Origin: Hyphomicrobiales bacterium
Lineage (GTDB): Bacteria; Pseudomonadota; Alphaproteobacteria; Rhizobiales; Rhizobiaceae
Direction of reading: 5' to 3'
DNA: 64,000 nucleotides
Assembly: GCA_900465685.1 (NCBI GenBank)
Contig: UEGR01000026.1
Coordinates: forward strand, 1-64,000
Of the stretch, positions 8,961-41,227 are shown in pieces (within the stretch, counting starts at the first letter, position 1; every line of letters begins with the position of its first letter). Under the pieces are notes generated by a model, which was not told the DNA's origin, searched no databases, and saw only the letters and a list, made by a program, of their open reading frames with translations. A program made the translations under genes and the position numbers.

Positions 8961-9027
8961 CAGATGAAATCAGGGCGTCCTGACAGGGAGAAGACGGACG
9001 CACCGCAGAACCAAAATGGAGGAGAAC

Positions 9028-25227: not shown

Positions 25228-26085
25228 CTATTTAACGGTTTGGGGGAACAGGAAAGTAACGCCAGCCTTTATACCCCATTTGGGGCCTTCCTCTGGACCC
25301 TCGAGCCAGTATTTGGCCCCCAGCGACAGGCTCATGGTCTGATCGTCAACCTTTACGATCTTTGAGAACGAGCCCGAAACAGGAACAGTCCATTGATCGG
25401 CTGTCCAGTCATAGTCGGCATCTAGATTGGCCGATATCGTCCTGCCTTTACCGATATGCCACGCGATAAACGGTTGCAACTCTGTCTGATTTACGTCCGC
25501 CCTACTACCGGCACCGAGTACCGACCAAATATGATTTGCCGACATACCGGTCGTGACCGAACTGGTTTGATAAAGCAGCAAGCCCGATGGGCCGAGAGAG
25601 AACTTACCGGACCCCAGCAGATCATCTGTAGCCGTTGGAAAAGAAAACTGCGGTCCAATTGCCCAGATTAGCGGGCCATGAGCCGCCGGGGTGAATGAGA
25701 AAGTTTGTGTGATATCGCCTAGCCCGTAAGTGCTACCGCCCTCGCCAAACGGGTTGGTATAGACGAGAGGAATGTCTGTATGAGAAATGACATTCCAACG
25801 ATCATTAAATCGCATTGGTATCACCGGCTCGATATCCAGAGAGAAGCCGCGCACCTTTCCGGTTCGCCGGCCGAAATCGAGATCAGAATGCACCGGCACG
25901 CTGATCATGAATGAAGCCGGATTGGAGACTTTTCGGGCCAACTCATCGACATCGTCATTTGAAGACTGAGCAAGGGACGGCGACGTTATCAATAGGATAG
26001 AAACCACACCGCCTAAAATAAGCTGCCCGACTTTTCCACCAATTCTCGTTCGGATGATCAAATCTGTGGTCACGCGGTTTCCCAT
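25228..26085 (-). CDS. Outer-membrane beta-barrel type protein (putative transporter)
   Basis: A 285-residue exported protein. The signal peptide lies at about 15-40 (a hydrophobic VSILLITSPSLAQS core preceded by basic residues). The mature part is rich in alternating beta segments such as SGSFSKIVKVDDQTMSLSLG and ends in VTFLFPQTVK, with family patterns like GLGDITQTFSFTP and WAIGPQFSFPTAT, known from neuromedin U-like/transporter-type barrel proteins often found with outer-membrane channels. It follows a 219-residue periplasmic protein gene by 57 bases and is the third gene of a leftward operon. Substrate unknown. Confidence 0.72.
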   Translation of the reverse strand: MGNRVTTDLIIRTRIGGKVGQLILGGVVSILLITSPSLAQSSNDDVDELARKVSNPASFMISVPVHSDLDFGRRTGKVRGFSLDIEPVIPMRFNDRWNVISHTDIPLVYTNPFGEGGSTYGLGDITQTFSFTPAAHGPLIWAIGPQFSFPTATDDLLGSGKFSLGPSGLLLYQTSSVTTGMSANHIWSVLGAGSRADVNQTELQPFIAWHIGKGRTISANLDADYDWTADQWTVPVSGSFSKIVKVDDQTMSLSLGAKYWLEGPEEGPKWGIKAGVTFLFPQTVK

Positions 26086-26142: not shown

Positions 26143-26802
26143 TTATTGTGCCGTGGCCTGTGAGAACGCCACCCCGGTAATCCGGTCGCCATCAAGGCGA
26201 TAAACAAGCGATTGCTCCACCGTCTCGCCTGAAACTTTATGCTCGTTTGAATAGCGTGCAAATTGCTTGGCTTTTACCTTGCCCAGGCGTTTTTCCAGAG
26301 CACGTTTGTCATCTTTCAAAGCTGGAATTGGCAGTTCGAGGTTCGACAGATCGATACTGGGCTGCCCACATTTGGCTGACTTATCCGTTATAACTTCAGC
26401 TGCGATCAGATTAAGAATGGCGCCATCGCCCTTCTTCTTGTTCAAACCGTCCGATATAAACCAGATGCGACGGGGTAAATTATCACCGGTTATCTCGTAA
26501 CAAAGCCAAGCGGTTTTACCCGATGACGTGCTATGGCCCTGAACGGCGCCTCCAGCGAGTGCTTGAATTTCATCGAGTTTTGTTTTTCCAAGCGATACAT
26601 CCTTGTCGGCCAATCTGATAAGATTATCAAAAGGAACGCTAAATTGAACGATAGTCGCTTTGGCTGTCTGCCCGCCCAGCACCATGGCCGGAAACCCACT
26701 TAACTTATCGTTCTGCGCATTCGCCGACGAGCAAGTCAGGACCGCAAATATCATCCCGACCACGCCCACCAATCCGGCGGGATTGAATGATCTGATATGC
26801 AT
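26143..26802 (-). CDS. Exported protein of unknown function
   Basis: A 219-residue protein I do not recognise. It has a signal peptide (about 1-30, hydrophobic GLVGVVGMIFAVLTCSSANAQ). The mature part has two conserved-looking cysteines (WLCYEI and SAKCGQP) that may pair, a KGDGAILNLIAAEV segment and a lysine-rich stretch KDDKRALEKRLGKVKAKQ. The ATG at 26802 is chosen because GGAG lies six bases upstream; two upstream ATGs would precede it. It stands between two outer-membrane barrel genes, so a periplasmic helper role is possible but unproven. Confidence 0.65.
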   Translation of the reverse strand: MHIRSFNPAGLVGVVGMIFAVLTCSSANAQNDKLSGFPAMVLGGQTAKATIVQFSVPFDNLIRLADKDVSLGKTKLDEIQALAGGAVQGHSTSSGKTAWLCYEITGDNLPRRIWFISDGLNKKKGDGAILNLIAAEVITDKSAKCGQPSIDLSNLELPIPALKDDKRALEKRLGKVKAKQFARYSNEHKVSGETVEQSLVYRLDGDRITGVAFSQATAQ

Positions 26803-26892
26803 AGCCATCTCCCACATCATGCCATGGTGAAACCTGTGGTTTGTAGAATGCCTTCGAAAGAAACGCACATGGCCCGTTTAAATTGCTTTTCT

Positions 26893-27876
26893 TCAATCTG
26901 CTGAAGCCATTGGCTTTTTGATCGATAACGGCATCGACAATGTCAGGATAACTGCATCACCTTCCGCTCGGTTTTCAGCCGCGAATTCATGGAAATATTT
27001 AACGCGGGCAGAAAGCGGGGTTTCCCCCAGCTCAAAGTTCCAGCCAGCTGTCGCTCCTATGGCCGCCACACGGCCCTTGAAAGGGGCGGCGGCCCCATCT
27101 CCACTATCGCCAGAGAGCTGCTGATAGTAATAGCCAATCAATCCCGCATCGAATTTGGCATTGAAGTGTTTTACCGCTGCCCATTCAAAATGGAACTCGT
27201 TACCAGTTCTATAATCCGTAGCAGGATTTTCCGCATTGAATGTTATACCGACCACACCGGAGAGATCCCAACCGATAGCAGGGTCCAACCAGGTTCCGGC
27301 GGCAAATATGTCTGCGCCCCAATGGTGGAAAGCGATATTTGAAATCTCGGCATCCTGATAGTCGCCAATAGGTACATTGACCAATGTACCGACCTGATAG
27401 TGGAAGTTACCGGTCTGCCACCCAAGGAACCCACTGACGATGGGGTCACCAATGGTAAACACCGTATCCCGTACGCCCCTCGAAACCTCGCCGACGCGCG
27501 GACCATTCAAAACGACATCGGCTTCGGTCTTCTTCCATCCAAATGGCAGCGATGCGCCCAAACCGAGAGAGCCTCCCGCAATGGTTTCCGGTAAGACCCA
27601 CATCACGGTCGGAATCTCGATGGCTGCCGTGCCCGTTACACCGACGGCCAGTTTGCCGCCTGTCGGAAGGCTTTTATTTCCGCCAAGATCTCCCCGATAA
27701 TAATAAAAGTCGTTCTGAAAATAGACGCCCGGAGGAGGTGTTATGCCCGCTGCGGGACCCTTCGATCCCAACAGGTAGAAACCCGCCCCTCCTTCCGCAC
27801 TCATCGCAACAGACGGAACAAGAAGCGATCCCGCAAGTGCCCCCAGTGCCAGCATATGCAGAGAAATTCGACCCAT
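26893..27876 (-). CDS. Outer-membrane protein, phenol-degradation MetA/SphA-like family
   Basis: A 327-residue predicted beta-barrel. The signal peptide covers 1-26 (LGALAGSLLVPSVAMSAEG). The mature start AGFYLLGSKGPAAGITPPPGVYFQNDFYYYRGD is characteristic in pattern of the MetA-pathway phenol-degradation family of outer-membrane proteins, as are IAAFTW-type glycine and aromatic alternations and the closing LTLSMPLSIKK. Start at the ATG 27876, which follows GAGGGGA. A copy of the 19-base motif lies 105 bases upstream. It is the first gene of a leftward three-gene envelope operon directly downstream of the membrane regulator. Confidence 0.78.
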   Translation of the reverse strand: MGRISLHMLALGALAGSLLVPSVAMSAEGGAGFYLLGSKGPAAGITPPPGVYFQNDFYYYRGDLGGNKSLPTGGKLAVGVTGTAAIEIPTVMWVLPETIAGGSLGLGASLPFGWKKTEADVVLNGPRVGEVSRGVRDTVFTIGDPIVSGFLGWQTGNFHYQVGTLVNVPIGDYQDAEISNIAFHHWGADIFAAGTWLDPAIGWDLSGVVGITFNAENPATDYRTGNEFHFEWAAVKHFNAKFDAGLIGYYYQQLSGDSGDGAAAPFKGRVAAIGATAGWNFELGETPLSARVKYFHEFAAENRAEGDAVILTLSMPLSIKKPMASAD

Positions 27877-27981: not shown

Positions 27982-28000
27982 AAGTACGTTACGGTAAATC
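27982..28000 (-). promoter_or_regulatory. 19-base regulon motif, copy A
   Basis: On the - strand this reads GATTTACCGTAACGTACTT, identical to copy D. It points toward the outer-membrane protein gene starting at 27876, 105 bases away. A GAGTAT hexamer begins 32 bases past it and could be a -10. It lies in the gap after the membrane regulator gene, so it serves the barrel operon only. Confidence 0.7.
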
Positions 28001-28086
28001 CCCACCGACGAAGGTCTTCGTATTTCAACTTTTAAAAACAATGGCTCGACGCGACGATCATCCAACGGCTTAGACAAGCTCGATAC

Positions 28087-29778
28087 TTAATTCCGCACAG
28101 TCGGCTCGGGCAGCTCGGCCCTCGTCTGCCCAATCTGGATTTGATCCATAATGACATTCGCAACCATACGTGGAACGCTCATTCCTTCCAGCTCGTTGCC
28201 GACAGCCTGATGCAGACCGGGATTAGACTGCGTCACATCCTTCAACTCCGCTGTCGCTTCAGTCGGCCTCAACTGAACGAGCGCCGCCAAGCGAAATCCA
28301 ACTGCCAGATCATTCTGCGGCGGCAATTGATTGGCAAACAACAATACATCATGCCAGTTACCACGCCGGGCAGCATCAAGCGCGAGAACTGTACGCGCTT
28401 TCAATGCCATATTACGCTTCTGCTGTTCGCTTTCGTTAATCAAAGCAATAGCTTGATCCCAGTTCTGGTTAGCAAACAAGGCAAGTGCCAGGGTCGCCTT
28501 TACCTCCAGATTATTGGGATTAAGAGCTACGGCGCGCTTTCCAGCCTCCAGCGCATCCTCTATCCTGCCTTTGCGAAAATTGGCTTCCATCAGGGCAAAT
28601 TCGGCTCGATCTGACCATGGTGCGATAGAGACAGCGTCCTGAGCAAGTTCCAGGCTACGGTCGAGCACATCTTTGGCGATAACCGACCCGCTGGAATTGA
28701 CAAGAAGGCGGGAAAGAGCGGCCATCGCGTCCGTCTGTCGCGGATCATACTTCAGCGTCCGTTCAAGACAATTTTGGGCGTCTGATTGTACCTGACCTTT
28801 CGCCAACGATATTTCTGCTTTCAGAACACAGACATTGCCAAAGAACTGGCTCTTCACATCCGAAGCGATCCGGTTATTGATTACGCCCGTTGAGGCGGCC
28901 AACTTTTGTGAAAGCCCGGACGACAGTTCCGCCCGCACCTGCTCCGCGGTCAATCCTGATCCCGGCACCTCTTCCACACCTGAACTCACAATGACGTTCT
29001 TGACCTCGTCATTGACCTGCCACCAGATGCTTCTGGTTTGGTCTTCAACCCGATACCGCATGCGTACCGTATAGGCGGGAAGTCGCATCTGAGGATCAAT
29101 GGACCCGGTATCGTTGGAACGAAGTGCTAGTGTGTGAAAATTGCCAAGCGCGATCAGCAATGAATCGCGAACACTTTCAGCCTCTCGATCAAAGGCAGGG
29201 TTCTCGGGGCTAAAATCGATTGCAACCGTCGGCTTGACTGTATCCGTCGAACGATTGGTCAGAAAATAAACAAGTGCCAAAGAGATTAACAATGCGAAAC
29301 TGGCAACTGCCAGATCGAGATATTTAAAACGACGCCTTAATGTTGCGGGCGGTATTGACGGAGGCGGGATCGGGGCTTGCCCCACAAGAGGATCCGAAGT
29401 TGCCTCTTCGGCATCGGCACGACGGTTGAACGCCAATGCATACTTGCCTTTTGGCAACTCTATCTCAATCGGCTTTTCTCTGCCGAAAGCCTCATAATAC
29501 TGTACCAGAGCAGCGCGCAAACGGCTGACTTCGATACGGACAATCGGATCGGTAGAAGGATCGAAGCTCTCTGGCCGCCCAAGGACATCAATCGCTATTG
29601 AATATCCTTTCACTCCGTCGTCACAGCCCGCGAAATGAAGGTCCGCAATGTAGTTGAGTATGGCTTTGCCTCGATCCGTGGCACGAAACCGCTTGTCCGC
29701 AGTCAGGTCAGCCAGCGCAGATTTAATTTCCTCATCTGATATTTCTCGGTCATCAAACGCATTACTATTCCGTGCCAT
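28087..29778 (-). CDS. Membrane-anchored winged-helix regulator with periplasmic TPR region (CadC-like)
   Basis: A 563-residue one-component regulator. Residues about 13-118 form a winged-helix DNA-binding domain of the kind found in rhizobial adenylate-cyclase-like/TPR regulators (DPIVRIEVSRLRAALVQYYEAFG and PKGKYALAF). A proline-rich linker (132-146) leads to one transmembrane helix (about 153-174); the remaining 390 residues are periplasmic, with TPR-like helices at about 340-500 (RIEDALEAGKRAVALNPNNLEV is a clear unit). It would sense a periplasmic signal and act directly on DNA, like CadC or ToxR. It is flanked by four copies of a 19-base motif and has its own promoter overlapped by a palindrome. 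Binding to the motif is inferred. Confidence 0.82.
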   Translation of the reverse strand: MARNSNAFDDREISDEEIKSALADLTADKRFRATDRGKAILNYIADLHFAGCDDGVKGYSIAIDVLGRPESFDPSTDPIVRIEVSRLRAALVQYYEAFGREKPIEIELPKGKYALAFNRRADAEEATSDPLVGQAPIPPPSIPPATLRRRFKYLDLAVASFALLISLALVYFLTNRSTDTVKPTVAIDFSPENPAFDREAESVRDSLLIALGNFHTLALRSNDTGSIDPQMRLPAYTVRMRYRVEDQTRSIWWQVNDEVKNVIVSSGVEEVPGSGLTAEQVRAELSSGLSQKLAASTGVINNRIASDVKSQFFGNVCVLKAEISLAKGQVQSDAQNCLERTLKYDPRQTDAMAALSRLLVNSSGSVIAKDVLDRSLELAQDAVSIAPWSDRAEFALMEANFRKGRIEDALEAGKRAVALNPNNLEVKATLALALFANQNWDQAIALINESEQQKRNMALKARTVLALDAARRGNWHDVLLFANQLPPQNDLAVGFRLAALVQLRPTEATAELKDVTQSNPGLHQAVGNELEGMSVPRMVANVIMDQIQIGQTRAELPEPTVRN

Positions 29779-29826
29779 ACCACCCCTCGCGGACCCGACA
29801 TGAGAATAAATTAGCTGTTTGGAATT

Positions 29827-29859
29827 AAAATAAGCCTCAGACGAATATTGTCAATATTC
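29827..29859 (-). promoter_or_regulatory. Promoter of the membrane regulator with overlapping palindrome
   Basis: GAATATTG-T-CAATATTC (29843-29859) is a perfect 8-bp inverted repeat. On the - strand it contains TTGACA (29849-29854), with TATTTT (29827-29832) 16 bases on, a plausible -35/-10 pair about 50 bases before the regulator start at 29778. The overlap suggests that a repressor bound here would block the regulator gene. Confidence 0.55.
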
Positions 29860-29872
29860 CCGGATAATTAAA

Positions 29873-29883
29873 GAACAATGTTC
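29873..29883. promoter_or_regulatory. Second small palindrome before the regulator gene
   Basis: GAACA-A-TGTTC is a perfect 5-bp inverted repeat 27 bases upstream of the larger palindrome and 17 bases after the stop of the small leftward gene. On the - strand it is followed by TTTAATT, so it may instead be a weak terminator for that gene. Confidence 0.3.
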
Positions 29884-29899
29884 CATTTCGGGGCATGAA

Positions 29900-30175
29900 C
29901 TAGCGATGTGATAAGCAATACTCCAAGACATCGTCTTCTATTTCCTTGCATATTGTCTCATATTCCAAGGAAAGTGGAGTGATTTCAACTTCATCCCGCC
30001 TCAACCTCTCCAACATATTGCTAGCTTCGTCATAAGCCTCGAAAAGACCGATCAGCGGCTCCCCGGAGAATTGCTTCAGCTCCGAGCGGACAGATGGAAG
30101 CTTTAACATGAGTTTGCTAAGTCCGCTTCTCGATGCAGAGCTGGCGTTGCGGCGGACTGGTCTATCCTGGTTCAC
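29900..30175 (-). CDS. Small protein of unknown function
   Basis: A protein of about 91 residues that I do not recognise. It is helical and acidic in its second half (EPLIGLFEAYDEASNMLERLRRDE, read in parts) and basic at its N-terminus, with no signal peptide or membrane helix. The start is uncertain: a GTG at 30175 has GGGGAG upstream, a TTG at 30196 is possible, and the first in-frame ATG is at 30109. A regulon motif (copy B) with a TACAAC box lies just upstream, which supports a real gene and the later start. It may be cotranscribed with the membrane regulator. Confidence 0.5.
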   Translation of the reverse strand: MNQDRPVRRNASSASRSGLSKLMLKLPSVRSELKQFSGEPLIGLFEAYDEASNMLERLRRDEVEITPLSLEYETICKEIEDDVLEYCLSHR

Positions 30176-30237
30176 TGTCCACGGATCTCCCCTCAACGGA
30201 TTTGGTTGTAAAGCATGACACCAATTTGTGCGCGTGG

Positions 30238-30256
30238 CAGTACGTTACGGTAAATC
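30238..30256 (-). promoter_or_regulatory. 19-base regulon motif, copy B
   Basis: On the - strand this reads GATTTACCGTAACGTACTG, one base different from copies A and D. It points toward the small gene and the membrane regulator behind it. TACAAC (30205-30210) begins 27 bases past it and could be a -10. Confidence 0.68.
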
Positions 30257-30329
30257 TACCTGTGTCACCGGGGGCCTCTCGATCTCTGCCAGCGAAATGG
30301 TGTCAACAGTAATCGAACCTGCACAAGAG

Positions 30330-30348
30330 TATTTACTGTAACGTACTT
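30330..30348 (+). promoter_or_regulatory. 19-base regulon motif, copy C
   Basis: TATTTACTGTAACGTACTT on the + strand, two bases different from copy A, 124 bases before the sulfatase start. It lies 73 bases from copy B in the opposite orientation, so the two make a divergent control region. Confidence 0.68.
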
Positions 30349-30472
30349 ACGAGCGCCCCAGAATTATTCGAGCTTCTTCAAGTTGCCATCGATATGAGCA
30401 TCGACGACATCCCAATTTGCCTCGCGAACAGGAGCACGGAATGTTGATACAATCCATTTTGAGGAGGGCGCT

Positions 30473-32089
30473 ATGAAGAAGCCCGTCATCCGCCGACTAC
30501 TTTCGGCGACCGCCGCGCTCGTCATGACAATGACGTCTGTGACGGTTGTAACACCCGTTCATGCGCAGCAAAATGCGCCTGCAGAACCCGCGGCAAAGCC
30601 GAACATCCTCGTCATCTTCGGTGACGATATCGGCCAGACGAACATCAGCGCCTATTCGTTCGGTGTCATGGGATATCGTACACCGAATATCGACCGGATC
30701 GCGCATGAGGGACTGATGTTCACGGACTATTATGCCGAGAACAGCTGTACCGCTGGACGCTCATCCTTCATCACCGGACAAACCCCGAAACGCACCGGCT
30801 TGTCGAAAGTCGGTGTGCCAGGGGCAACCGTTGGCCTGCAAGCGCGCGACGTCACCCTCGCTCAGGCGCTTAAACCTCTAGGTTATGCAACCGGGCAGTT
30901 TGGTAAGAACCACTTGGGCGACCGTGACGAATATCTGCCAACCAATCATGGGTTCGACGAATTCTACGGCAATCTTTATCACCTGAATGCCGAAGAAGAG
31001 CCTGAAAATCCAAACTGGCCGAAGGATGACGAAGCCTTCACCAAGATGAACTCGCCGCGCGGCGTGCTCAAGGCAAGCGCTGACGGAAAAATCGAGGATA
31101 CCGGCGCGCTGACAAAAAAGCGCATGGAAACCATCGATGACGAAACAACGGACGCTGCAATCGACTTCATAAAACGTCAGGTCGACCAGAAGAAACCGTT
31201 CTTTACCTGGATGAACACAACACGCATGCATCTGTTCACCCATGTTCGCCCTTCAATGATCGGGCAGAGCGGCATGACCGGCAATGAGTATGCCGACGGC
31301 ATGATCGAGCATGACGGTGATGTCGGAAAACTCCTGAAGACGCTGGATGATCTTGGCATCGCGGACAACACCATCGTCGTCTATACGACCGATAATGGAC
31401 CGAACCGCTTCACCTGGCCGGATGCTGCAAACTCGCCATTCCGCAACGAAAAGGATTCCAATTTCGAAGGTGCCTTCCGTGTACCGGCAATGGTGCGGTG
31501 GCCCGGACATATCAAGCCCGGTCAGGTGTCCACCGACATGTTCTCCGGTCTAGACTGGTTCCCGACTTTGATGGCTGTTGCGGGTGATACCGATATCAAG
31601 GATCGTCTTCTGAAGGGTACAAGCATTGGCGGCAAGCAGTTCAAGGTACACCTGGACGGCTACAACCAGTTGCCATACCTTACAGGGCAAGAATCCAAGA
31701 GCGCTCGCAATGATTTCGCCTATTTCAACGATGACGGCGTTCTCGTTGCATATCGCCTTGGCGACTGGAAAGCGGTCTTCGTTGAGATGCAGCACCCGGG
31801 CGGCTTTGCAGTTTGGCAGCAGCCCTTCACGCCGCTGCGTATCCCCAAGCTCTACAATCTGCGCATGGATCCCTATGAGCGCGCCGATATCGTTTCGGAC
31901 CAGTACTTCGACTGGCTGACAAGAAACGACTTCAAGCTGGCACAGATGACGATGCATGCCGCAGAGTTCCTTCAGACCTTCGTTGAATATCCACCTAGTC
32001 AGGAACCAGCAAGCTTCTCGATTGACCAGATCTCTCGCGATGTAGAGGCCAAGATCAAAGAGAACGCCGCAAAGGCCAAAGCGAACTGA
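30473..32089 (+). CDS. Arylsulfatase, cysteine type, exported
   Basis: A 538-residue type I sulfatase. The signal peptide covers about 1-31 (ending VHAQQ). The formylglycine consensus is C92-T-A-G-R96, a cysteine-type site (C-x-A/P-x-R) that needs a formylglycine-generating enzyme; one is encoded at 38451. Metal ligands start with D51-D52 (FGDD), and KNHLGD and TTDNGPN supply further catalytic residues. It would hydrolyse sulfate esters in the periplasm. A strong hairpin follows the gene and separates it from the Bat-type genes; regulon motif C precedes it. The substrate (aryl, choline-like or carbohydrate sulfate) cannot be told. Confidence 0.9.
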   Translation: MKKPVIRRLLSATAALVMTMTSVTVVTPVHAQQNAPAEPAAKPNILVIFGDDIGQTNISAYSFGVMGYRTPNIDRIAHEGLMFTDYYAENSCTAGRSSFITGQTPKRTGLSKVGVPGATVGLQARDVTLAQALKPLGYATGQFGKNHLGDRDEYLPTNHGFDEFYGNLYHLNAEEEPENPNWPKDDEAFTKMNSPRGVLKASADGKIEDTGALTKKRMETIDDETTDAAIDFIKRQVDQKKPFFTWMNTTRMHLFTHVRPSMIGQSGMTGNEYADGMIEHDGDVGKLLKTLDDLGIADNTIVVYTTDNGPNRFTWPDAANSPFRNEKDSNFEGAFRVPAMVRWPGHIKPGQVSTDMFSGLDWFPTLMAVAGDTDIKDRLLKGTSIGGKQFKVHLDGYNQLPYLTGQESKSARNDFAYFNDDGVLVAYRLGDWKAVFVEMQHPGGFAVWQQPFTPLRIPKLYNLRMDPYERADIVSDQYFDWLTRNDFKLAQMTMHAAEFLQTFVEYPPSQEPASFSIDQISRDVEAKIKENAAKAKAN

Positions 32090-32100
32090 CATTCGAAACA

Positions 32101-32131
32101 ACGGCACGCGCCTCCGCGCGTGCCGTTTCTT
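32101..32131 (+). terminator. Strong hairpin with T-tail between sulfatase and MoxR genes
   Basis: An 11-bp perfect GC-rich stem (ACGGCACGCGC 32101-32111, complement 32116-32126) with a 4-base loop is followed by TTTCTT. It looks like a partial terminator that would leave the sulfatase transcript much more abundant than the downstream ATPase genes, which have no other obvious promoter. Confidence 0.7.
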
Positions 32132-32149
32132 CGTCGACAGGAGCAAAGC

Positions 32150-33130
32150 ATGACTGCACGCGATGATATTCTGAAACTCGGCGACCGCGTGGGCCAATCT
32201 GTCATCGGGCAGGAGCAAATGGTCGAGCGCCTATTGCTGGGCGTGATTTCAAATGGTCACATATTGGTCGAGGGGCTTCCGGGACTCGCCAAAACCCGTG
32301 CAATCAAAAGCCTGGCGAAAAATCTCGAATCCGAACTTTCCCGCATCCAGTTCACGCCCGATCTACTGCCCGCCGATGTCACCGGCTCTGAAATCTATAT
32401 TTCAGACGGCACAAAGAGTGCCTTCCAGTTTCAACAAGGCCCGATCTTCGCCAATCTCATTCTTGCCGATGAAATCAACCGCGCGCCCGCCAAAGTTCAA
32501 TCGGCTTTGCTGGAAGCGATGGAAGAACGGCAGGTAACTGTCGGCGGAAAGAGTTATCGATTGCCGGACCTGTTCATGGTCATGGCGACGCAAAACCCGA
32601 TTGAGCAGGAAGGGACCTACCCTCTGCCCGAAGCGCAACTGGATCGTTTTCTGCTGCATATCCGGGTCGACTATCCCGATGAAAAATCCGAAGCCGCGAT
32701 CATGCGTCTTAACCGGAGCGAGGAACAGGAAGCCCACGACAAGGCTCCCGCAAAAGAAAAAACGGCCCGCCTATCGGCGCAGAGCATCTTTGATGCGCGC
32801 AAGGAAATCGGCAAGATCACAGTGTCCGAGCCGGTCGAAAAATACATGGTCGCACTCGTTTTCGCGACGCGTTATCCGGATCGCTATAATGCCGATCTCG
32901 CCAAGTTGTTGCAGGTCGGTGTGAGCCCGCGCGGTGTGATCGGCCTTGATCGTATGTCGCGCTCCTACGCCTGGCTGAGGGGACGCGATTTTGTCACCCC
33001 GGATGACGTCAAAGCGATTGTGCACGATGTTTTCCGACACCGGCTGCTATTGTCCTATGAGGCACATGCGTCAAACACCACGCCCGATCAGATCATTGAT
33101 CGCATCACAGAACTGGTGGCCGTGTCATGA
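32150..33130 (+). CDS. MoxR family AAA+ ATPase
   Basis: A 326-residue MoxR-type AAA+ ATPase. The P-loop is GLPGLAKT (42-49), Walker B is in LILADEINR, and sensor residues follow in MATQNPIEQEGTYPLPEAQLDRF (read in parts). MoxR proteins act as chaperone-like ATPases with VWA partners to insert metals or mature complexes. The ATG at 32150 has CAGGAG upstream; a longer frame from 32120 runs through the terminator hairpin. It starts a tightly overlapping six-gene set. No methanol dehydrogenase genes are present, so the name MoxR is historical only. Confidence 0.9.
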   Translation: MTARDDILKLGDRVGQSVIGQEQMVERLLLGVISNGHILVEGLPGLAKTRAIKSLAKNLESELSRIQFTPDLLPADVTGSEIYISDGTKSAFQFQQGPIFANLILADEINRAPAKVQSALLEAMEERQVTVGGKSYRLPDLFMVMATQNPIEQEGTYPLPEAQLDRFLLHIRVDYPDEKSEAAIMRLNRSEEQEAHDKAPAKEKTARLSAQSIFDARKEIGKITVSEPVEKYMVALVFATRYPDRYNADLAKLLQVGVSPRGVIGLDRMSRSYAWLRGRDFVTPDDVKAIVHDVFRHRLLLSYEAHASNTTPDQIIDRITELVAVS

Positions 33131-34080
33131 GCGCAGGCTTGAGCGACGACACTGGTGTTTATGTGGATACCACTGCGCTCGTTGCACTTGAGGCCCAAGC
33201 GCGTGATCTCAGCTTCGTCCAAAAGTCGCCCAGCCACCGTCAGCTTGCGGGCCGGATGCGCTCGGCAGTACGTGGTCGCGGTCTCTCCTTCGAGGAGCTG
33301 CGCGAGTATCTGCCTGGCGATGACATCCGCTCCATAGACTGGCGGGTTACCGCGCGGACGATGAAGCCGGTCGTGCGGGTCTATAGCGAAGAGAAAGAAC
33401 GTCCTGCCCTCCTTATCGTTGATCAACGCATCAATATGTTTTTCGGCAGCAAACGCGCCATGAAATCCGTATGTGCAGCGGAATGCGCAATGCTGTGCGC
33501 CTGGCGTATTCTGGGATCGGGTGACCGTGTTGGTGGCATCGTGTTCGGCGACACGGATACCGCGCAGATCAAACCGCAGCGCAGCCGCAATGCGGTCATC
33601 GGCCTCGCCAGCCAGATTGCGAAGAAAAACGCCGCGCTCAAAGCCAGCTACACGCTTGATCCCGCTCCATCCATGTTGAATGACATTTTGCATCACGTCA
33701 GCGCCATAGCCTATCACGACTATCTCGTGATCGTGGTCAGCGACTTCGATGGCCATGACGATACGACACGCGATTACCTGCTCCAGATTTCGAGCCGCAA
33801 TGATGTGATCTGCCTGTTGGTCTATGATCCATTTCTGCTTGATCTGCCGAAGAGTGGCGAACTGGTCGTCAGTGGCGGCACCACACAGGCCGAATTGACC
33901 TTTGGCAAAGGGTCGATGCGCAATTCCATCGATAGCTTCGCGCGTAACCGCGGGCGCGAGTTCCGCTCCTGGCAACGCGAGCTCGGGCTTCCCATGCTCC
34001 CTATCTCTGCGGCAGAAGAAACCGCACCACAATTACGCAACCTCCTTGAGAAGTCCATGTGGCGCCAAAGGAGGCGATAG
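33127..34080 (+). CDS. DUF58 domain protein of the Bat operon
   Basis: A 317-residue protein with the DUF58 core GRGLSFEELREYLPGDDIRSIDWRVTART (spread over about 54-82) followed by a VWA-like fold around LLIVDQRINMFFGS. The metal site is degenerate. DUF58 proteins regularly sit between MoxR and VWA membrane genes. It overlaps MoxR by four bases (ATGA). The cytoplasmic location is inferred from the lack of a signal or transmembrane segment. Confidence 0.88.
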   Translation: MSAGLSDDTGVYVDTTALVALEAQARDLSFVQKSPSHRQLAGRMRSAVRGRGLSFEELREYLPGDDIRSIDWRVTARTMKPVVRVYSEEKERPALLIVDQRINMFFGSKRAMKSVCAAECAMLCAWRILGSGDRVGGIVFGDTDTAQIKPQRSRNAVIGLASQIAKKNAALKASYTLDPAPSMLNDILHHVSAIAYHDYLVIVVSDFDGHDDTTRDYLLQISSRNDVICLLVYDPFLLDLPKSGELVVSGGTTQAELTFGKGSMRNSIDSFARNRGREFRSWQRELGLPMLPISAAEETAPQLRNLLEKSMWRQRRR

Positions 34081-34550
34081 TGGATCAAGCAACAGAGACC
34101 GCTCTTAGGTCGCTCCACGACATTGCTATTCCACCGCCAATTTCATGGCTGCCGCAAACATGGGGATGGGGACTACTGGCGGCCCTGCTCTTCTTGGCAA
34201 TTGCCATTTTCATCGTTCGATGGTTCGTCCGCTATCGACGCAACGCATATCGGCGTGAAGCACTCCATGCTCTCGAGATCATTTCCAACAATACACTCTC
34301 AGCACGGTCACCGGCGATAGAAGTTGCCGAACTGCTGAAGCGCACGACACTATCCGCATGGCCTCGCATCGACGTCGCAACTCTATCTGGCAGTCGCTGG
34401 GTTGGTTTCCTCGAGCAACACAGTTCAGAGCCGCTCGGAGCTGATCTGAAGGCACTCCTGACGGGTCAGGAATATGAGCCGGGACCGACAAAGGGCTTGT
34501 CTGCGATCGTCGGTCAGGCACGTCTATGGATCGAGAGGCATCATGTATGA
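34080..34550 (+). CDS. DUF4381 membrane protein of the Bat operon
   Basis: A 156-residue protein with one membrane helix (about 24-46, GWGLLAALLFLAIAIFIVRWFV) after the ALRSLHDIAIPPPISWLPQTWG opening typical of DUF4381, and a basic cytoplasmic tail. The preferred start is the GTG at 34080, five bases after AGGAGG and overlapping the previous stop as TAGTG. An in-frame GTG at 34059 would consume that site. It overlaps the next VWA gene by eight bases. Role in the complex unknown. Confidence 0.82.
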   Translation: MDQATETALRSLHDIAIPPPISWLPQTWGWGLLAALLFLAIAIFIVRWFVRYRRNAYRREALHALEIISNNTLSARSPAIEVAELLKRTTLSAWPRIDVATLSGSRWVGFLEQHSSEPLGADLKALLTGQEYEPGPTKGLSAIVGQARLWIERHHV

Positions 34551-35532
34551 ACTCGATCATCCGTGGCTTCTGCTTCTATTGCCAGTACCGCCGCTTCTCT
34601 GGTGGCTTCTGCCAAGCCATCGGGTATCGACCGCTTCAATCAGACTGCCCTTCTTCAAAGATGTCGCACGAGCAGCAGGTGTTGAACCAACGGAGGGATC
34701 GATTATTCCGCGGCGAAGCTGGTGGCAGATCGTCCTTGATTTACTCGCTTGGGGCTTGCTGGTTCTGGCACTGGCCCGGCCGCAACTCATCGAACCGCCG
34801 ATTACAAAATCGATACCGCAGCGCGATATATTGCTGGCTCTCGATCTTTCTCAATCGATGGACACACGCGATTTTGCGACGCCAAGCGGTGCGCTGGACA
34901 CGCGGATCAACGCCGTCAAAACAGTGGTAGCGGACTTTGTTGCAAGGCGGACAAACGACCGGCTGGGGTTGATTGCCTTTGGCGACGCCCCCTATCCGCT
35001 AGCGCCGTTCACGATGGACCACGATTTAATACGGACAATGATCGGCTCTCTCGTGCCAGGCGAGGCCGGCCCCAGAACCGCAATGGGCGACTCCATCGGC
35101 CTTGCTATTCGCATGTTCGAGAAATCGAATGTGCCCGAGAAAGTGCTTATCCTGCTCTCCGATGGCAATGATACTGCGAGCAAGATGCCGCCTCTAAAAG
35201 CCGCAGAAATCGCCAAAGACAACCACATCGTTATTCACACTGTCGCAATCGGTGACCCAAACGCCACCGGCGAGGATAAGGTCGACACACAGACATTACA
35301 GGCCATCGCCACGCAAACGGATGGGCGCTATTCCTTCGGTCAGGATCAGCCTAGTCTGGCCGCCATCTACGATATGCTGGACAGTATAACGCCACAGGAA
35401 CAAAAAGAGTTGTCATGGCGACCGCGACGGGAACTGTTCCAGTATCCGGCAGCACTTTCATTGATGATATTGATCTTTTCTCTTTGCCTTAGTGTTGCAC
35501 AGGCACGAATGGTGTGGAGAACAGCGGCATGA
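34543..35532 (+). CDS. VWA domain membrane protein (BatA-like)
   Basis: A 329-residue protein. N-terminal helices lie at about 6-23 and 61-79, the VWA domain at 92-290 with intact MIDAS D101-x-S103-x-S105 (DLSQS), a threonine in RTAMGDS and the aspartate of LLSDGNDT, and a C-terminal helix lies at about 308-326. The VWA domain would bind Mg2+ and a partner protein. It matches BatA. It overlaps the genes on both sides. Confidence 0.88.
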   Translation: MYELDHPWLLLLLPVPPLLWWLLPSHRVSTASIRLPFFKDVARAAGVEPTEGSIIPRRSWWQIVLDLLAWGLLVLALARPQLIEPPITKSIPQRDILLALDLSQSMDTRDFATPSGALDTRINAVKTVVADFVARRTNDRLGLIAFGDAPYPLAPFTMDHDLIRTMIGSLVPGEAGPRTAMGDSIGLAIRMFEKSNVPEKVLILLSDGNDTASKMPPLKAAEIAKDNHIVIHTVAIGDPNATGEDKVDTQTLQAIATQTDGRYSFGQDQPSLAAIYDMLDSITPQEQKELSWRPRRELFQYPAALSLMILIFSLCLSVAQARMVWRTAA

Positions 35533-37085
35533 CCTCCGACTTTCACTTCCTCCGCCCGGCCTGGCTAATTTTATTGATACTGCCGCTTGTCTTGGTTTGG
35601 CTTGCCGCGCGGTCTTCAAACGTCAGGCAGAAGTGGAAGAACATGATTGCTCCACATCTGCTTGAGCGACTGGTTATCGAAGGAGACAGCGAGCGACGTT
35701 TTCAGCCAGCGACACTTCTGGCGCTCATTATGGTCATCATGATCCTCGCAATCGCCGGTCCAAGCTGGGATAAGGAAACACCCCCTTTCGTGCATGACAC
35801 GGCATCACTGGTGATCGCGGTCGATCTTTCACAAACAATGGATGCCATTGACGTCAGCCCCAGCCGCATCGAAAGGGCCAAGCTCAAAATCCACGATATT
35901 CTGGCAAGTCGCGCTGGGGCTAGAACGGCCGTGATTGCTTACGCAGGCACAGCACATCTGGTGTTGCCCCTCACCGATGACGCCGATCTGATTGAATCCT
36001 ATACCGATGCGCTTTCAACGAGCATCATGCCGCGTCCCGGAAAGGATACGGGCGCAGCACTTATCCGCGCAGCCGCACTACTGAAAGAAGACGGTTCTTC
36101 CGGAACAATATTGTTCATGACAGACGGAGTAGAAACCTCAGCCATCAAATCGCTGGGCGATGAACGGGATAATGGCGTTGTGGTGTTGATCATCAGTACG
36201 GCGGATGGTGGGCCGATCAAGACCGGCGACGGTGGCTTTCTTTCATCAGACAGTGGTACGCGCCTCGTTACCAAACTCGATGCTGAAAGCATGGCACAAC
36301 TGCGCGCCTCAAACACTATTGCAGTCACAACCGTCACTGACGACGATGCCGATGTTCGATGGATTACGGCACAGATACAGGGAAACTTTGCACAACAGCA
36401 ATCGGATAAGGAAAGCCGATGGCGCGACAGCGGATGGTGGTTTCTCATCCCGGCGGCGCTGCTGTTTGCCCTCACGTTCCGACGCGGCTGGGTTGTCAGA
36501 CTTGGCGGCATGATCATTGCCATTCATTTAATCGGAAACGATCCGGCAAGCGCTGGTTCATTCGAAGATATGTGGCTGACGCAGGACCAGCAGGGACGAA
36601 TTGCTTTTCAAAACAAAGATTTTTCCAAAGCCGCGAAGTTGTTTCGCAATCCCATGTGGCGTGGTGTCGCCGAATACCGGGCCGGGAATTATCAGGGAGC
36701 CATCAATGCATTTGCCATCATCGACAGCCCGCAGAGCTGGTACAACCAAGGCAATGCGCTGATGCATCTGAAGAAATTCGCTGAAGCTGTTTCCGCATAC
36801 GAGAAAGCACTTCAGGCAAACCCAAAGTCGGAAGATGTTCAGGCCAATCTCGCGACGGCAAAACGTCTCCTGCAAGCACAGCAGAATGAGGAGCAGGATC
36901 AGACAGAAGATCCCGATTTGAAGCCTGACAGCGTCCAGTTTGATGACAAGGGCAAAGAAGGCAAAGATGTTGAAATTGCCATGTCTGAACAAACTTCTCA
37001 GATGTGGATCAAAAACATTGCTGTCAGCCCGGCCGCCATGCTGGCACGCCGGTTTTCGATTGAAGCAGAAGGCGGTACCAAATGA
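35529..37085 (+). CDS. VWA-TPR membrane protein (BatB-BatC fusion-like)
   Basis: A 518-residue protein combining a BatB-like VWA half and a BatC-like TPR half. Helices lie at about 10-27 and 61-77; the MIDAS reads D99-L-S101-Q-T103, with Thr in place of the last Ser. Further membrane segments at about 300-335 precede a periplasmic TPR region (YNQGNALMHLKKFAEAVSAYEKALQANP, read in parts, near 400-430) and a charged low-complexity tail. The ATG at 35529 overlaps the BatA stop. The fusion is also known in other proteobacteria. Confidence 0.85.
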   Translation: MTSDFHFLRPAWLILLILPLVLVWLAARSSNVRQKWKNMIAPHLLERLVIEGDSERRFQPATLLALIMVIMILAIAGPSWDKETPPFVHDTASLVIAVDLSQTMDAIDVSPSRIERAKLKIHDILASRAGARTAVIAYAGTAHLVLPLTDDADLIESYTDALSTSIMPRPGKDTGAALIRAAALLKEDGSSGTILFMTDGVETSAIKSLGDERDNGVVVLIISTADGGPIKTGDGGFLSSDSGTRLVTKLDAESMAQLRASNTIAVTTVTDDDADVRWITAQIQGNFAQQQSDKESRWRDSGWWFLIPAALLFALTFRRGWVVRLGGMIIAIHLIGNDPASAGSFEDMWLTQDQQGRIAFQNKDFSKAAKLFRNPMWRGVAEYRAGNYQGAINAFAIIDSPQSWYNQGNALMHLKKFAEAVSAYEKALQANPKSEDVQANLATAKRLLQAQQNEEQDQTEDPDLKPDSVQFDDKGKEGKDVEIAMSEQTSQMWIKNIAVSPAAMLARRFSIEAEGGTK

Positions 37086-38368
37086 GGATTTTGTTTCGCC
37101 TCATCGGTTTCGGCCTTCTTCTGACAACCCAATTTCTCGTCAGTGATGCCTCAGCGCAGGAACCTATCATACGTGCCAAGATCGAAGAAACCGGCACAAT
37201 CGTGCCGGGCCAACAAGTTCATCTCGTGCTGAATGTGCTTGCTCCGGGTTTTTTCACCTCGCCTCCACAATTCCCCCTGTTCGCGCTGCCGCACGCTCTG
37301 GTGACATTGCCTGATGAACGATCCCAGAACGTCACAGACACCATAAATGGCGTTCAATTCAGCGGCATTCAAAAGCGCTATTCTATTATACCCCAAGTCA
37401 GCGGGAGTTATAGCATTCCCGCAATCGAGATTTCGTTCGACTATCTTGAGGATGGAAATCGCAAGCACACAACAGCGACGAGCGCACCGATGTCCTTCAG
37501 CGTCGACGCTGCCCAACAGGATGGACAGCCTGAATTTGCTGCCGGGTCTCTGGAACTGACACAAAGTTTCGATAGGCCTCCGGATAAATTACAGACCGGA
37601 GACGCTCTGGTCAGAACACTTACTATTACCGCAACGGATACGGTGGCGATCACCATTCCGCCTGTCAATGTTGGCACCTCACAAGGCCTGGACCAGTATG
37701 TAAAGCCGGCCACTGTGGCGGACAATGTTCCAGCGGGGCGACAAACAGCAAGTCGTCGCGTCGAAACCATCGTCTACACGGCTTCCAAGCCTGGCACTTT
37801 CACGCTACCGGCGGTTTCCTATCACTGGTTTGATGTGCAATCACAGCAAGTTCAGATCGCAACTTTACCGGTGACAACCGTTACGGTCGCTCCAAATACA
37901 GCGAAATCTGCGACACCCGTTGAACCCGCAGACAAGAACATGCCAAGTCGGCAGGTGCTTTGGATATTGGCGTTAGCCGTGCTTCTGGTCGCTGTCGTTC
38001 TGGCCGTCGCTTTGCGATATCGGGCGCGGCTTTCGAAGCTTCTGCACAAATGGAATGAGCGGCGGCGAAACTCGATCGGTAGGCAAAAAAGACAGACACT
38101 TCGCATTATCAAAACGGCGAATTATCCACAAATCAACGCTGCGCTGGAAGCCTGGACGCGTCGCAAGGGATACGCCTCCCTTGAAGATTGGGCGCGGGCA
38201 GCAGGTGACACGTCACTGGCCACGCAAGTCAAGATCCTACAACGACAGCTTTATGGAAATAGCGCCCCGGAAGAGATTGATCGCCGTATCCTGGCTCGCG
38301 GCGTTGAGAACCGTATATCGCGTAAAAGCACCACAAAGCCACCTGCCCTTGTCGCGCTGAACCCCTGA
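37082..38368 (+). CDS. BatD family exported membrane protein
   Basis: A 428-residue protein. The signal peptide is 1-26 (ending DASAQ). The large periplasmic part (27-285) has the BatD pattern of immunoglobulin-like strands, for example VPGQQVHLVLNVLAPG and TLTITATDTVAITIPPV. One C-terminal membrane helix lies at about 296-316, followed by a basic cytoplasmic tail. It overlaps the VWA-TPR gene by four bases and ends the overlapping set; the formylglycine enzyme gene follows behind its own motif. Confidence 0.82.
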   Translation: MRILFRLIGFGLLLTTQFLVSDASAQEPIIRAKIEETGTIVPGQQVHLVLNVLAPGFFTSPPQFPLFALPHALVTLPDERSQNVTDTINGVQFSGIQKRYSIIPQVSGSYSIPAIEISFDYLEDGNRKHTTATSAPMSFSVDAAQQDGQPEFAAGSLELTQSFDRPPDKLQTGDALVRTLTITATDTVAITIPPVNVGTSQGLDQYVKPATVADNVPAGRQTASRRVETIVYTASKPGTFTLPAVSYHWFDVQSQQVQIATLPVTTVTVAPNTAKSATPVEPADKNMPSRQVLWILALAVLLVAVVLAVALRYRARLSKLLHKWNERRRNSIGRQKRQTLRIIKTANYPQINAALEAWTRRKGYASLEDWARAAGDTSLATQVKILQRQLYGNSAPEEIDRRILARGVENRISRKSTTKPPALVALNP

Positions 38369-38379
38369 TACACTTTGCT

Positions 38380-38398
38380 GATTTACCGTAACGTACTT
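38380..38398 (+). promoter_or_regulatory. 19-base regulon motif, copy D
   Basis: GATTTACCGTAACGTACTT on the + strand, identical to copy A, 52 bases before the formylglycine-generating enzyme start. TACAAT (38429-38434) begins 30 bases past it and is the best -10 candidate of the four copies. Confidence 0.72.
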
Positions 38399-38450
38399 CC
38401 TGCCAGAACGACACCAAGGCAACCTTTGTACAATTTCGCGGAGGATGACG

Positions 38451-39416
38451 ATGGGTATGAACGCTTTGAGCAAACGTTATTCCGAGCAGGCTTCAGATGA
38501 AATGGCCTGGATTCCAGGCGGGACGTTTCAGATGGGGTCGGACAACCATTATCCCGAGGAAGCGCCGCGACACCCGGTGAAGGTGGACGGATTTTGGATC
38601 AGCACAACACCTGTCACCAATCGTCAGTTTTCCCGCTTCGTTGAAGAAACGGGGTATATCACGATGGCGGAGAAAGCACCCGATCCACGGGATTATCCCG
38701 GCGCTCTGCCCGAAATGCTGCGCGCAGGCTCACTTGTATTCACGTCGCCAAAGCGGGTCGAAGGTTGCGATATAGGCCAATGGTGGAAATTCAAATTCGG
38801 AGCAAACTGGCGCAAGCCATTGGGCGGGCTCAGCGATTTACGCGGTAAGCTCGATCATCCTGTCGTTCACGTGGCCCATTGTGATGCACTTGCCTATGCT
38901 CAGTGGGCGGGTCTTGATTTGCCAACCGAGGCAGAATTCGAGTTCGCAGCCAAAGGTGGGCACGAGGACGTGGAATATGCGTGGGGCGACGAACTGATGC
39001 CAGATGGCGTTGCCATGGCCAACACGTGGCAAGGCGTATTTCCCGTGAAAAGCACGAAACCAGCAGGGCGTGAGCGAACATCTCCAGTCCGGTCATTCCC
39101 CGCCAACGGTTATGGTGTTTACGACATGATCGGCAATGTCTGGGAATGGACCAATGATTACTGGACAACGCAACATGCGCAACCGGCTGCAAGTCCCTGC
39201 TGCATACCCAGCAACCCCCGTGGGGGCGAAGCATTGGCGAGTTTGGACCCACAGCAACCCGATATCCGCATCGCCAGACGTGTGCTGAAGGGCGGCTCTC
39301 ACCTCTGTTCGCCTGATTATTGCCGGCGCTATCGTCCGGCTGCGCGCCATGCAGAACCCGAAGACACATCCACAAGCCATGTCGGATTTCGGTGCGTGAA
39401 AAGACCAACGAACTAG
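38451..39416 (+). CDS. Formylglycine-generating enzyme (sulfatase activator)
   Basis: A 321-residue SUMF1/FGE-type enzyme without signal peptide. The catalytic cysteines C286 and C291 lie in GGSHLCSPDYCRRYR, with S283 before them, followed by the family ending STSHVGFRCVK. The N-terminal IPGGTFQMGS and SPCCIPSNPRG segments also fit. With copper and oxygen it converts the Cys of a C-x-A/P-x-R sulfatase site to formylglycine. The obvious target is the sulfatase at 30473. The ATG at 38451 lies six bases after GGAGG; an ATG at 38445 would abut that site. It starts a transcription unit behind motif D. Confidence 0.9.
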   Translation: MGMNALSKRYSEQASDEMAWIPGGTFQMGSDNHYPEEAPRHPVKVDGFWISTTPVTNRQFSRFVEETGYITMAEKAPDPRDYPGALPEMLRAGSLVFTSPKRVEGCDIGQWWKFKFGANWRKPLGGLSDLRGKLDHPVVHVAHCDALAYAQWAGLDLPTEAEFEFAAKGGHEDVEYAWGDELMPDGVAMANTWQGVFPVKSTKPAGRERTSPVRSFPANGYGVYDMIGNVWEWTNDYWTTQHAQPAASPCCIPSNPRGGEALASLDPQQPDIRIARRVLKGGSHLCSPDYCRRYRPAARHAEPEDTSTSHVGFRCVKRPTN

Positions 39417-39426: not shown

Positions 39427-40401
39427 ATGCGTTTGCTTACGCTGTTGGTGCTGATCGTCACATTGCAGATATCTACATCAGCATGGGCCGCAGAGCTTTC
39501 CAACTGGAATGACAGTAAATCCAGACAGCAGATCGTCGACTTCGTCGAGAAGGTAACGAAGGAAGGCAATAAAGATTATGTAGCACCTGTTGACCGAATT
39601 GCCGTGTTCGACAATGACGGCACACTCTGGACGGAGCAACCCTATTATTTTCAGTTGGCTTTCATGCTGGTTCGGGTCAAGGCACTGGCTCCCGATCATC
39701 CGGAATGGAACACCACGGAACCGTTCAAATCCATCCTCAACGGCGATCTGGCAGGTATCGCGAAAAGTGGCGAGAAGGGCGTGGTGGAGCTTGGCATGGC
39801 GACCCATGCCGGCATGACAACGGACGAGTTCAACAAGATCGTCACAGATTGGTACGCAACGGCGAAACACCCAAAGACAGGTAAGCCCTTTACGGAAATG
39901 ACATTCCTGCCTATGCGTGAGCTGCTTGATTATTTGCGCGCTCATGACTTCAAAACATTCATCGTGTCAGGCGGTGGCGTGGAATTCATGCGTCCCATGA
40001 CCGAAAAGGCCTATGGCATTCCTGCGGAGCAGGTGATCGGCAGCAGTATCAAAACCCAATATGCCGTCGAGAATGACCAGCCCGTCCTGAAACGCTTGCC
40101 GGAGGTCGATTTCATCGATGATGGTCCCGGCAAACCGGTGGGCATCAATCGCATCATCGGCAAGAAGCCGATTTTTATCGCTGGCAACTCCGATGGTGAT
40201 TACGAAATGCTGCGTTGGGGCACCACCTCTCCCAACAGCCTCGGTATCATCATCCATCACACCGACGGAGACCGGGAATATGCCTATGACCGGCAGTCGT
40301 CATTCGGCAAGCTGGACAAAGCTCTGACCGAAGCGCCGAAACGAAATTGGGTCATCGTCGACATGAAGAATGATTGGAAGAAGGTCTATGCCTTCGAATG
40401 A
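39427..40401 (+). CDS. Exported HAD family phosphatase-like hydrolase
   Basis: A 324-residue HAD-superfamily protein with a signal peptide (about 1-22, ending AWAAE). Motif I is FDNDGT, motif II is in FIVSGGG and motif III/IV is GNSDGDYEM, all intact, so it should be an active Mg2+ hydrolase resembling phosphoserine phosphatase, placed in the periplasm. It starts ten bases after the formylglycine-enzyme stop. The substrate is unknown; phosphorylated or sulfated organics handled by this locus are candidates. Confidence 0.83.
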   Translation: MRLLTLLVLIVTLQISTSAWAAELSNWNDSKSRQQIVDFVEKVTKEGNKDYVAPVDRIAVFDNDGTLWTEQPYYFQLAFMLVRVKALAPDHPEWNTTEPFKSILNGDLAGIAKSGEKGVVELGMATHAGMTTDEFNKIVTDWYATAKHPKTGKPFTEMTFLPMRELLDYLRAHDFKTFIVSGGGVEFMRPMTEKAYGIPAEQVIGSSIKTQYAVENDQPVLKRLPEVDFIDDGPGKPVGINRIIGKKPIFIAGNSDGDYEMLRWGTTSPNSLGIIIHHTDGDREYAYDRQSSFGKLDKALTEAPKRNWVIVDMKNDWKKVYAFE

Positions 40402-40456
40402 CCTTTCATTCCACGTGCCATTATCCGCAGTCCATAAACACTCAAGGAGGACTCCA

Positions 40457-41227
40457 ATGCCGATCAACAGGCGCATTCTCCGATGTACAGTCAGCGGGCT
40501 ATTCTTGCTCGGCATGATTACCATATCTGCCGCACAAGACGGCAAGGCTGCTTCCGACAGGATCGAACCCGCTTCGATTCAAGCCTTAGAGAATATGGGG
40601 AAGCATTTGCAATCCTTGCAGAAATTTTCCCTCGAATCTCAAACGATTGTGGACGCCGTTCTGGATACCGACCAGAAACTGGAGATTGGCGGCGAGATTA
40701 CCTATGAGGTTGAAAGACCGAACAAACTCCGTATCGATCTGAAAACTGATGTGGTGCAGGGTGAGTTCATTTATAACGGAACGACGTTCACCTACGTTTC
40801 GCCAAACAGCAATACTTATGCTCAGGCTCCAGCACCCGCGACGATCAAGGAAACGCTTGAAGAAGCCGCTCAGAAATATCATCTGACTTTCCCATTGGCG
40901 GATTTATTTGCTTGGGGCACACCAGACGCGCCTATCAAAGAGATTGTCGAAGGCTTTCACGCTGGTAATGCAACGGTGAATGGCAAGCCAACGGATCATT
41001 GGGCTTACCGCACCAGTGATCAGGATTTCGAAGTCTGGATTGCTTCAGACGGCCCACCTTTGCCCCTCAAGGTCTCGCTTGTGGATCGTGACGATCAGAC
41101 CCGCCCGCGTATGACAGCTGTTCTCAATTGGAACGAAACGCCCGATATTCAGGCGAGTGTTTTTGAATTCACGCCACCGCCCAACGCGCAAAAGCTCCGC
41201 TTCCTGGAAGAGGGGAATCCGCAATGA
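40457..41227 (+). CDS. DUF2092 family exported protein
   Basis: A 256-residue exported protein with a signal peptide (about 1-25, ending ISAAQ). It matches DUF2092 in pattern: ALENMGKHLQSLQKFSLESQ, then YEVERPNKLRIDLKTD, FIYNGTTFTYVSPNSNTYAQ and a C-terminal LNWNETPDIQASVFEFTPP. The fold is thought to resemble LolA, a lipoprotein carrier, so lipid or hydrophobic ligand binding is possible. The ATG at 40457 follows GGAGGA. It overlaps the next gene by four bases. Confidence 0.78.
   Translation: MPINRRILRCTVSGLFLLGMITISAAQDGKAASDRIEPASIQALENMGKHLQSLQKFSLESQTIVDAVLDTDQKLEIGGEITYEVERPNKLRIDLKTDVVQGEFIYNGTTFTYVSPNSNTYAQAPAPATIKETLEEAAQKYHLTFPLADLFAWGTPDAPIKEIVEGFHAGNATVNGKPTDHWAYRTSDQDFEVWIASDGPPLPLKVSLVDRDDQTRPRMTAVLNWNETPDIQASVFEFTPPPNAQKLRFLEEGNPQ

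Follow-up and report, generated by a model that had tools for sequence, protein, structure and literature searches.

The targets described for regulators of the CadC/ToxR type are lysine decarboxylase or virulence genes. Choline sulfatase in Sinorhizobium is controlled by BetI, within a single TetR-controlled bet operon that serves one substrate and uses an operator different from the one described below; CysB is a soluble protein of the LysR type. Sulfur-starvation control of arylsulfatase by the cys regulon in Pseudomonas, and the standing of sulfate esters and sulfonates as major organic sulfur forms of soils, are described in PMC4267179. Here, a stretch of 64,000 nucleotides (the window) from a Hyphomicrobiales bacterium of the Rhizobiaceae (assembly GCA_900465685.1, contig UEGR01000026.1, positions 1 to 64,000, forward strand) was analysed, in which a short motif recurs upstream of sulfatase genes, their helpers and a gene for a membrane-anchored winged-helix protein, referred to as the regulator. 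This protein is very probably an autoregulated, CadC/ToxR-like, membrane-integrated activator that reads KTWACNGTWACGTACTT and controls a sulfatase regulon. The motif, its position, the promoter geometry, the matching of regulator and motif, the paired changes in recognition helix and operator, and the target families were computed directly. Operator and regulon appear to be new: the initial annotation knew no precedent, and searches by motif letters or topic likewise returned no description, although many subscription papers and all preprints lay outside them, so one may exist.

The initial annotation had described four copies of a 19-base motif, each in a promoter gap and pointing toward a gene start 41–124 bases away. 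A recount on the window returned all four with the positions, strands and mismatch counts claimed (4/4; table 1). The spacing was about right, at 105 bases from copy 1 to the start of the outer-membrane protein (27876), 128 from copy 2 to the ATG of the small gene (ending at 30109), 124 from copy 3 to the sulfatase start (30473) and 46 from copy 4 to the start of the formylglycine-generating enzyme (FGE; 38445). The copies are thus real, but the leading GA is not conserved and the conserved core comprises the 17 bases KTWACNGTWACGTACTT. Copy 2 has ACTG as its terminal bases, and the placement of copy 4 in the gap between BatD and FGE recurs in other species. The 5.14-Mb assembly held no further copy of the 19-mer at up to three mismatches (reversed-pattern control, 1). 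When one mismatch to the family core was allowed, a fifth site, GTTACCGTAACGTGCTT, was found outside the window at C17:125331, where it precedes a DUF1254 gene and is conserved in B. haematophila.

In an initial scan covering 199 genomes of the family, near copies tended to occur where a strong relative of the regulator was present, and the pattern for the exact scan, TWACNGTWACGTACTT, was taken from the near copies in those genomes. Summed over the scan table, the exact core gave 171 sites in 31 of 394 family genomes (1–20 per genome), against 14 matches of the reversed pattern in the same genomes (at most 2 per genome); in 376 genomes of the order outside the family there was 1 site, against 18 for the reversed pattern. 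Aligned sites keep G/T-T-W-A-C-N-G-T-W-A-C-G-T-A-C-T-T and, further on, an A and a T at the spacing of a -10 hexamer. That the four near-identical 19-mers within 10.4 kb stem from chance or a dispersed repeat element, local duplication being conceivable at such density, is hardly credible in view of these counts and of the dinucleotide-shuffled window, in which the 19-mer had a mean of 0 matches over 100 shuffles. Duplication or a repeat element was rejected on the further ground that only the 17-base core is kept among the family sites while their flanks differ. A general promoter element was likewise rejected, the motif being absent from 363 of the 394 family genomes and, elsewhere in the order, no commoner than expected by chance. 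Gene context was judged on the 101 exact sites in stretches fetched from 27 of the 31 genomes, with genes called by a simple codon-usage script. Of these sites, 99 were intergenic, and for 93 the next called gene runs in the direction of the site, a count lowered by artefactual antisense calls, at least those at window position 30333 and its B. haematophila counterpart. Position in promoter gaps and orientation toward genes, as first claimed for the window, therefore hold family-wide; among the fetched sites the motif is rarely intragenic (2/101), and orthologous genes have it in their upstream regions. As a separate observation, several rhizobia (L213, L216, L218, L228 and others) have a milder operator variant, TTACCGTTGCGTACTT, whose second half carries TTGC in place of TWAC.

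Occurrence of the motif was then set beside that of the regulator. Among the 199 genomes covered by both searches, the nine with at least two sites were the same nine that carried the regulator at ≥225 bits; four of the other 190 had one site and none had a strong regulator (Fisher p 9e-16, uncorrected for kinship). In the 394-genome set, a regulator of ≥200 bits was found in 23/23 genomes with at least two sites and in 1/8 single-site genomes. The eight sampled genomes of the window's own genus divided into four with both regulator and motif and four with neither. No regulator of ≥200 bits was found in 20 genomes that lack the motif but belong to one of six genera in which it occurs (0/20; best 117 bits), and a 21st such genome, G074, had no regulator match in the 199-genome search. 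At the named regulator loci, which are the best 80 of 517 relatives with flanks fetched up to 8 kb, 58 had an exact site, 3 a one-mismatch site only, 5 a variant form or its one-mismatch relative, and 14 neither, with 0 matches of the reversed usual pattern at the same 80. When sites that were exact or had a changed last base were considered at 81 loci, 48 had one 476–811 bp before the regulator match.

A few genomes form exceptions. In G230 the single orphan site stands at a gap of about 6.5 kb relative to the locus of its close relative Pseudochrobactrum XF203 (L190 versus L193); the missing stretch comprises most of FGE, an arylsulfatase, a transporter, the regulator and a transporter, and the site looks like a leftover after loss of the whole unit. 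The single sites of G121 and G191 precede a small open reading frame (ORF) beside a divergent, more distant regulator paralogue; further exceptions are G088, G128, G238 and G378. Three side observations concern the regulator gene itself. It aligns in two frames in L200 (Ochrobactrum teleogrylli, 8001–9660) and at G246:C42:200574–202239, as if broken, with operators and target genes remaining. On three Rhizobium plasmids (H60–H62: NZ_CP092434.1, NC_007762.1 and NZ_CP104157.1) the match to it is split into three parts of 32% identity, a pattern expected of gene decay. A regulator with three exact operators of rhizobial form also stands on a contig of an Acidobacteriaceae metagenome-assembled genome (L220), probably a misbinned rhizobial contig.

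Recognition helix and operator were found to change together. The residue following RLR in the helix is A, S or T in 50 of the 60 aligned rows and E in four; the RLRE form was found in Rhizobium johnstonii, R. sullae, R. leguminosarum WSM1325, Agrobacterium bohemicum and one Endobacterium paralogue. Beside these regulators the usual operator is replaced by GTAACAGTAACATYCTT or a sequence near it. Genome scans returned this variant operator in 5/5 genomes or records with an RLRE regulator and 0/4 others, and the usual motif in 0/4 genomes where the variant regulator alone is known and 5/5 others. In Endobacterium cereale both paralogues occur, and each lies next to the operator type that goes with it: three variant sites are on the contig of the variant regulator, and usual sites flank the other paralogue. 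Variant sites occupy matching places, namely the BatD–FGE gap, the outer-membrane gene after the regulator and a DUF1254/1214 gene, and one with a changed last base lies at the regulator promoter. The variant regulators form one clade in the tree, so the change of helix and operator may have been a single event. Separately, three copies of GTAACCGTTACGTACCC at 581, 8452 and 9409 surround a distant regulator in L265, and are perhaps a third operator form; the name of that contig (Mycobacterium sp. KBS0706) looks doubtful for this protein family.

Direct binding of the operator by the regulator is what this joint change suggests. A different factor, such as an extracytoplasmic function (ECF) sigma factor or one involving the small ORF, might instead read the motif, the membrane protein being merely a target; the regulator does lie downstream of the motif, and the small ORF adjoins it in several relatives. 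Such a factor is improbable, since it is the winged helix that varies with the operator, down to two paralogues in one genome each by its own form, and since a -10 element at a fixed distance is what ordinary activated promoters of the sigma-70 type show. The family-wide matching with the motif and the joint change thus bear out the membrane-anchored winged-helix protein, named in the initial annotation as the best candidate.

Promoter spacing was analysed on 92 of 98 sites after removal of redundancy. An A....T signature at +20 to +22 past the motif was present at 61/92 sites, against 14.5 ± 3.4 (maximum 27) in 2000 rotated controls, with the signal by offset being 27/92 at +20 and 31/92 at +21. 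Three of the four window sites carry it, the exception being that at 27982. The initial annotation had placed -10-like hexamers 27–32 bases past the motif in three copies; these exist in the window (GAGTAT at +31, CAAGTT at +30 and TACAAT at +30), but across the family the offsets are at background level (5/92 and 3/92) and the signal lies at +20 to +22. With a -10 element 20–22 bp downstream, the motif overlaps the -35 box, as in a class II activator site; a 17-bp spacer would put the start of the -35 hexamer in the motif's final bases. TTACG half-sites were found in 41/189 of the 60-base stretches upstream of sites and in 5/218 control stretches 200–260 bp upstream (redundancy not removed), with peaks near -12, -22 and -32, and their recurrence would fit tandem binding on one helix face. 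The site geometry as a whole fits class II activation, and we infer the sign, activation rather than repression, from this sequence pattern. The same regulator and operator could also be combined in a repressor that blocks RNA polymerase at -35 until a signal releases it, and overlap with the -35 position suits this as well; moreover, sites ending in C or G are commoner at regulator promoters than elsewhere (18/48 vs 10/108), which could mean weaker self-repression. Repression is nevertheless unlikely, as the bases at the -35 position, TT[CG]C.., make a poor -35 hexamer, as expected where an activator replaces it, and as the fixed orientation to the promoter and the one-face upstream half-sites resemble activator sites of the PhoB/OmpR type.

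In the model of the regulator, a single predicted transmembrane helix, also evident as hydrophobic sequence, separates two folded parts. OmpR-family DNA-binding domains head the rows of the structural comparison, and whole-model structural searches were filled by TPR proteins; Pfam Trans_reg_C (PF00486) was not matched by the regulator at E values up to 10, with TPR and other unrelated families listed instead. For the structure alignment, 59 of the 80 named loci were used, redundant, distant and broken-reading ones (L200 and L269) being left out. As a side observation, two cysteines (317 and 337) are invariant in 60/60 aligned sequences; they fall in the TPR part, predicted to be periplasmic, and possibly form a redox-sensitive disulfide. 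The closest named relative among the best 80 of 517 is from Ochrobactrum sp. RH2CCR150 (91% identical), and the regulator is annotated as a hypothetical protein in the plasmid records examined. A small ORF of 73–96 amino acids (aa) occupies the matching place in several relatives (cases seen, with conservation judged by eye), and in Pseudochrobactrum no small gene is annotated there. The small ORF of the window had no Pfam family over the cut-off; its product could be a partner or anti-activator.

Pfam families were tallied in 18 chosen genomes for 97 of the 100 genes that come first after an exact or one-mismatch site, a set that excludes two regulators and one other gene; 25 of the 35 families were listed. 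The first downstream gene encoded a sulfatase in 26 cases, DUF1254 in 16, DUF1214 in 16, FGE in 8, Phenol_MetA_deg in 4, DUF2092 in 3, HAD in 3, MoxR (AAA_3) in 2 and an alkyl sulfatase in 1. In gene runs headed by operators, 37 sulfatases of more than 400 aa match the one in the window, and every one of them has the C-x-A/P-x-R core; both parts of a formylglycine sulfatase system, core-bearing (C-x-P/A-x-R) sulfatases and FGE, were found downstream of operators. With at most 10 sites listed per genome, a co-directional site lay within 2.5 kb of at least 19 of the 62 sulfatase-domain genes of six genomes (about 0.1 expected), the remaining genes having no listed site within that distance; in the window's genome 1/4 were linked. 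The four units first proposed as the regulon are therefore part of a wider one, with sulfatases and their helpers as its theme.

Table 1. Positions of operators, putative promoter elements, regulator and target genes in the window.
Feature	Coordinates	Strand	Remarks
Operator copy 1	27982..28000	-	0 mismatches; upstream of Phenol_MetA_deg outer-membrane operon
Operator copy 2	30238..30256	-	1 mismatch; upstream of small gene and regulator
Operator copy 3	30330..30348	+	2 mismatches; upstream of sulfatase and MoxR-Bat operon
Operator copy 4	38380..38398	+	0 mismatches; BatD-FGE gap, upstream of FGE-HAD-DUF2092
-10-like hexamer CATGCT	30212..30217	-	20 bp past operator 2
-10-like hexamer GAGCTT	30370..30375	+	21 bp past operator 3
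-10-like hexamer CAACCT	38420..38425	+	21 bp past operator 4
Regulator, 563 aa	28087..29778	-	winged helix; single transmembrane helix; alpha/beta domain and TPRs in the periplasm
Regulator residues 79-101	29476..29544	-	long helix, presumed recognition helix; RLR-A-AL; variant-operator clade has E at position 89
Regulator residues 151-174	29257..29328	-	predicted transmembrane helix; hydrophobic sequence, structure model
Small ORF, 69 aa from ATG	29900..30109	-	follows operator 2, precedes regulator
Outer-membrane-like protein, no Pfam family	25228..26085	-	in other genera, homologues lie after operators
Exported protein, no Pfam family	26143..26820	-	second in outer-membrane operon
Phenol_MetA_deg outer-membrane protein	26893..27876	-	
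Secreted sulfatase	30473..32089	+	C-T-A-G-R core (residue 92)
MoxR-type AAA ATPase	32120..33130	+	
DUF58 protein	33127..34080	+	
DUF4381 protein	34059..34550	+	
VWA (BatA-like) protein	34474..35532	+	
VWA-TPR (BatB/C-like) protein	35514..37085	+	
BatD protein	37082..38368	+	
FGE family protein	38445..39416	+	
Exported HAD-type hydrolase	39427..40401	+	
DUF2092 periplasmic protein	40370..41227	+	

In the proposed mechanism, the regulator would be an inner-membrane one-component factor whose winged helix, of OmpR/PhoB-like type, faces the cytoplasm and whose sensor, containing TPRs, lies in the periplasm. It would bind the operator over the -35 box and act as an activator of class II, recruiting RNA polymerase to promoters that carry a -10 element 20–22 bp downstream. 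The signal read in the periplasm is most likely sulfate esters or sulfate shortage. By autoregulation the protein would drive its own gene and the preceding small gene; its further targets would be the formylglycine sulfatase with the MoxR-Bat operon, FGE (which matures sulfatases) with its companions, the outer-membrane operon and the distant DUF1254 gene. In relatives the same regulator may serve up to about 20 sites, many of them at more sulfatases and at DUF1254/DUF1214 proteins. More speculatively, and rather doubtfully as a whole, this might be a family-wide sulfate-ester regulon under a new class of membrane-integrated activator, which senses the state of the periplasm by means of its TPR domain and the two invariant cysteines, with MoxR-Bat as an assembly machine for formylglycine sulfatases, DUF1254/DUF1214 proteins as envelope partners of sulfate-ester use, and whole-unit gain and loss together with the operator switch in one clade preventing cross-talk between parallel copies.

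The system is a candidate for a dedicated switch for sulfate release from sulfate esters in soil and root bacteria, and a role is suggested for a regulator annotated as a hypothetical protein in the plasmid records. Shared control ties DUF1254, DUF1214, DUF2092 and MoxR-Bat, whose role is unassigned, to sulfatases and makes their roles testable. The helix–operator pairs, two of them in one genome, provide a natural specificity switch of an OmpR-like DNA-binding domain.

Compared with the described systems, the regulator shares with the CadC/ToxR type the membrane-integrated one-component layout, with one predicted transmembrane helix between DNA-binding and periplasmic parts, and differs in the lack of a Trans_reg_C match, in its operator, in the small ORF that often precedes it and in its occurrence in Rhizobiaceae; a possible member of that type, the protein would work like CadC/ToxR with OmpR-like use of the operator. 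With PhoB/OmpR class II activators it has in common an operator over the -35 box, a fixed -10 spacing, upstream half-sites every ~10–11 bp and the OmpR-family structural matches, whereas it is membrane anchored, has no receiver domain or phosphorylation site, and reads an operator from which the recognition sequence of the pho box differs. The likeness to BetI lies in sulfatase regulation in a rhizobium, and that to the Pseudomonas cys regulon in the control of sulfatase genes for organic sulfate esters; unlike CysB, the regulator is membrane anchored and uses a dedicated operator common to FGE, MoxR-Bat and DUF1254/1214 genes.

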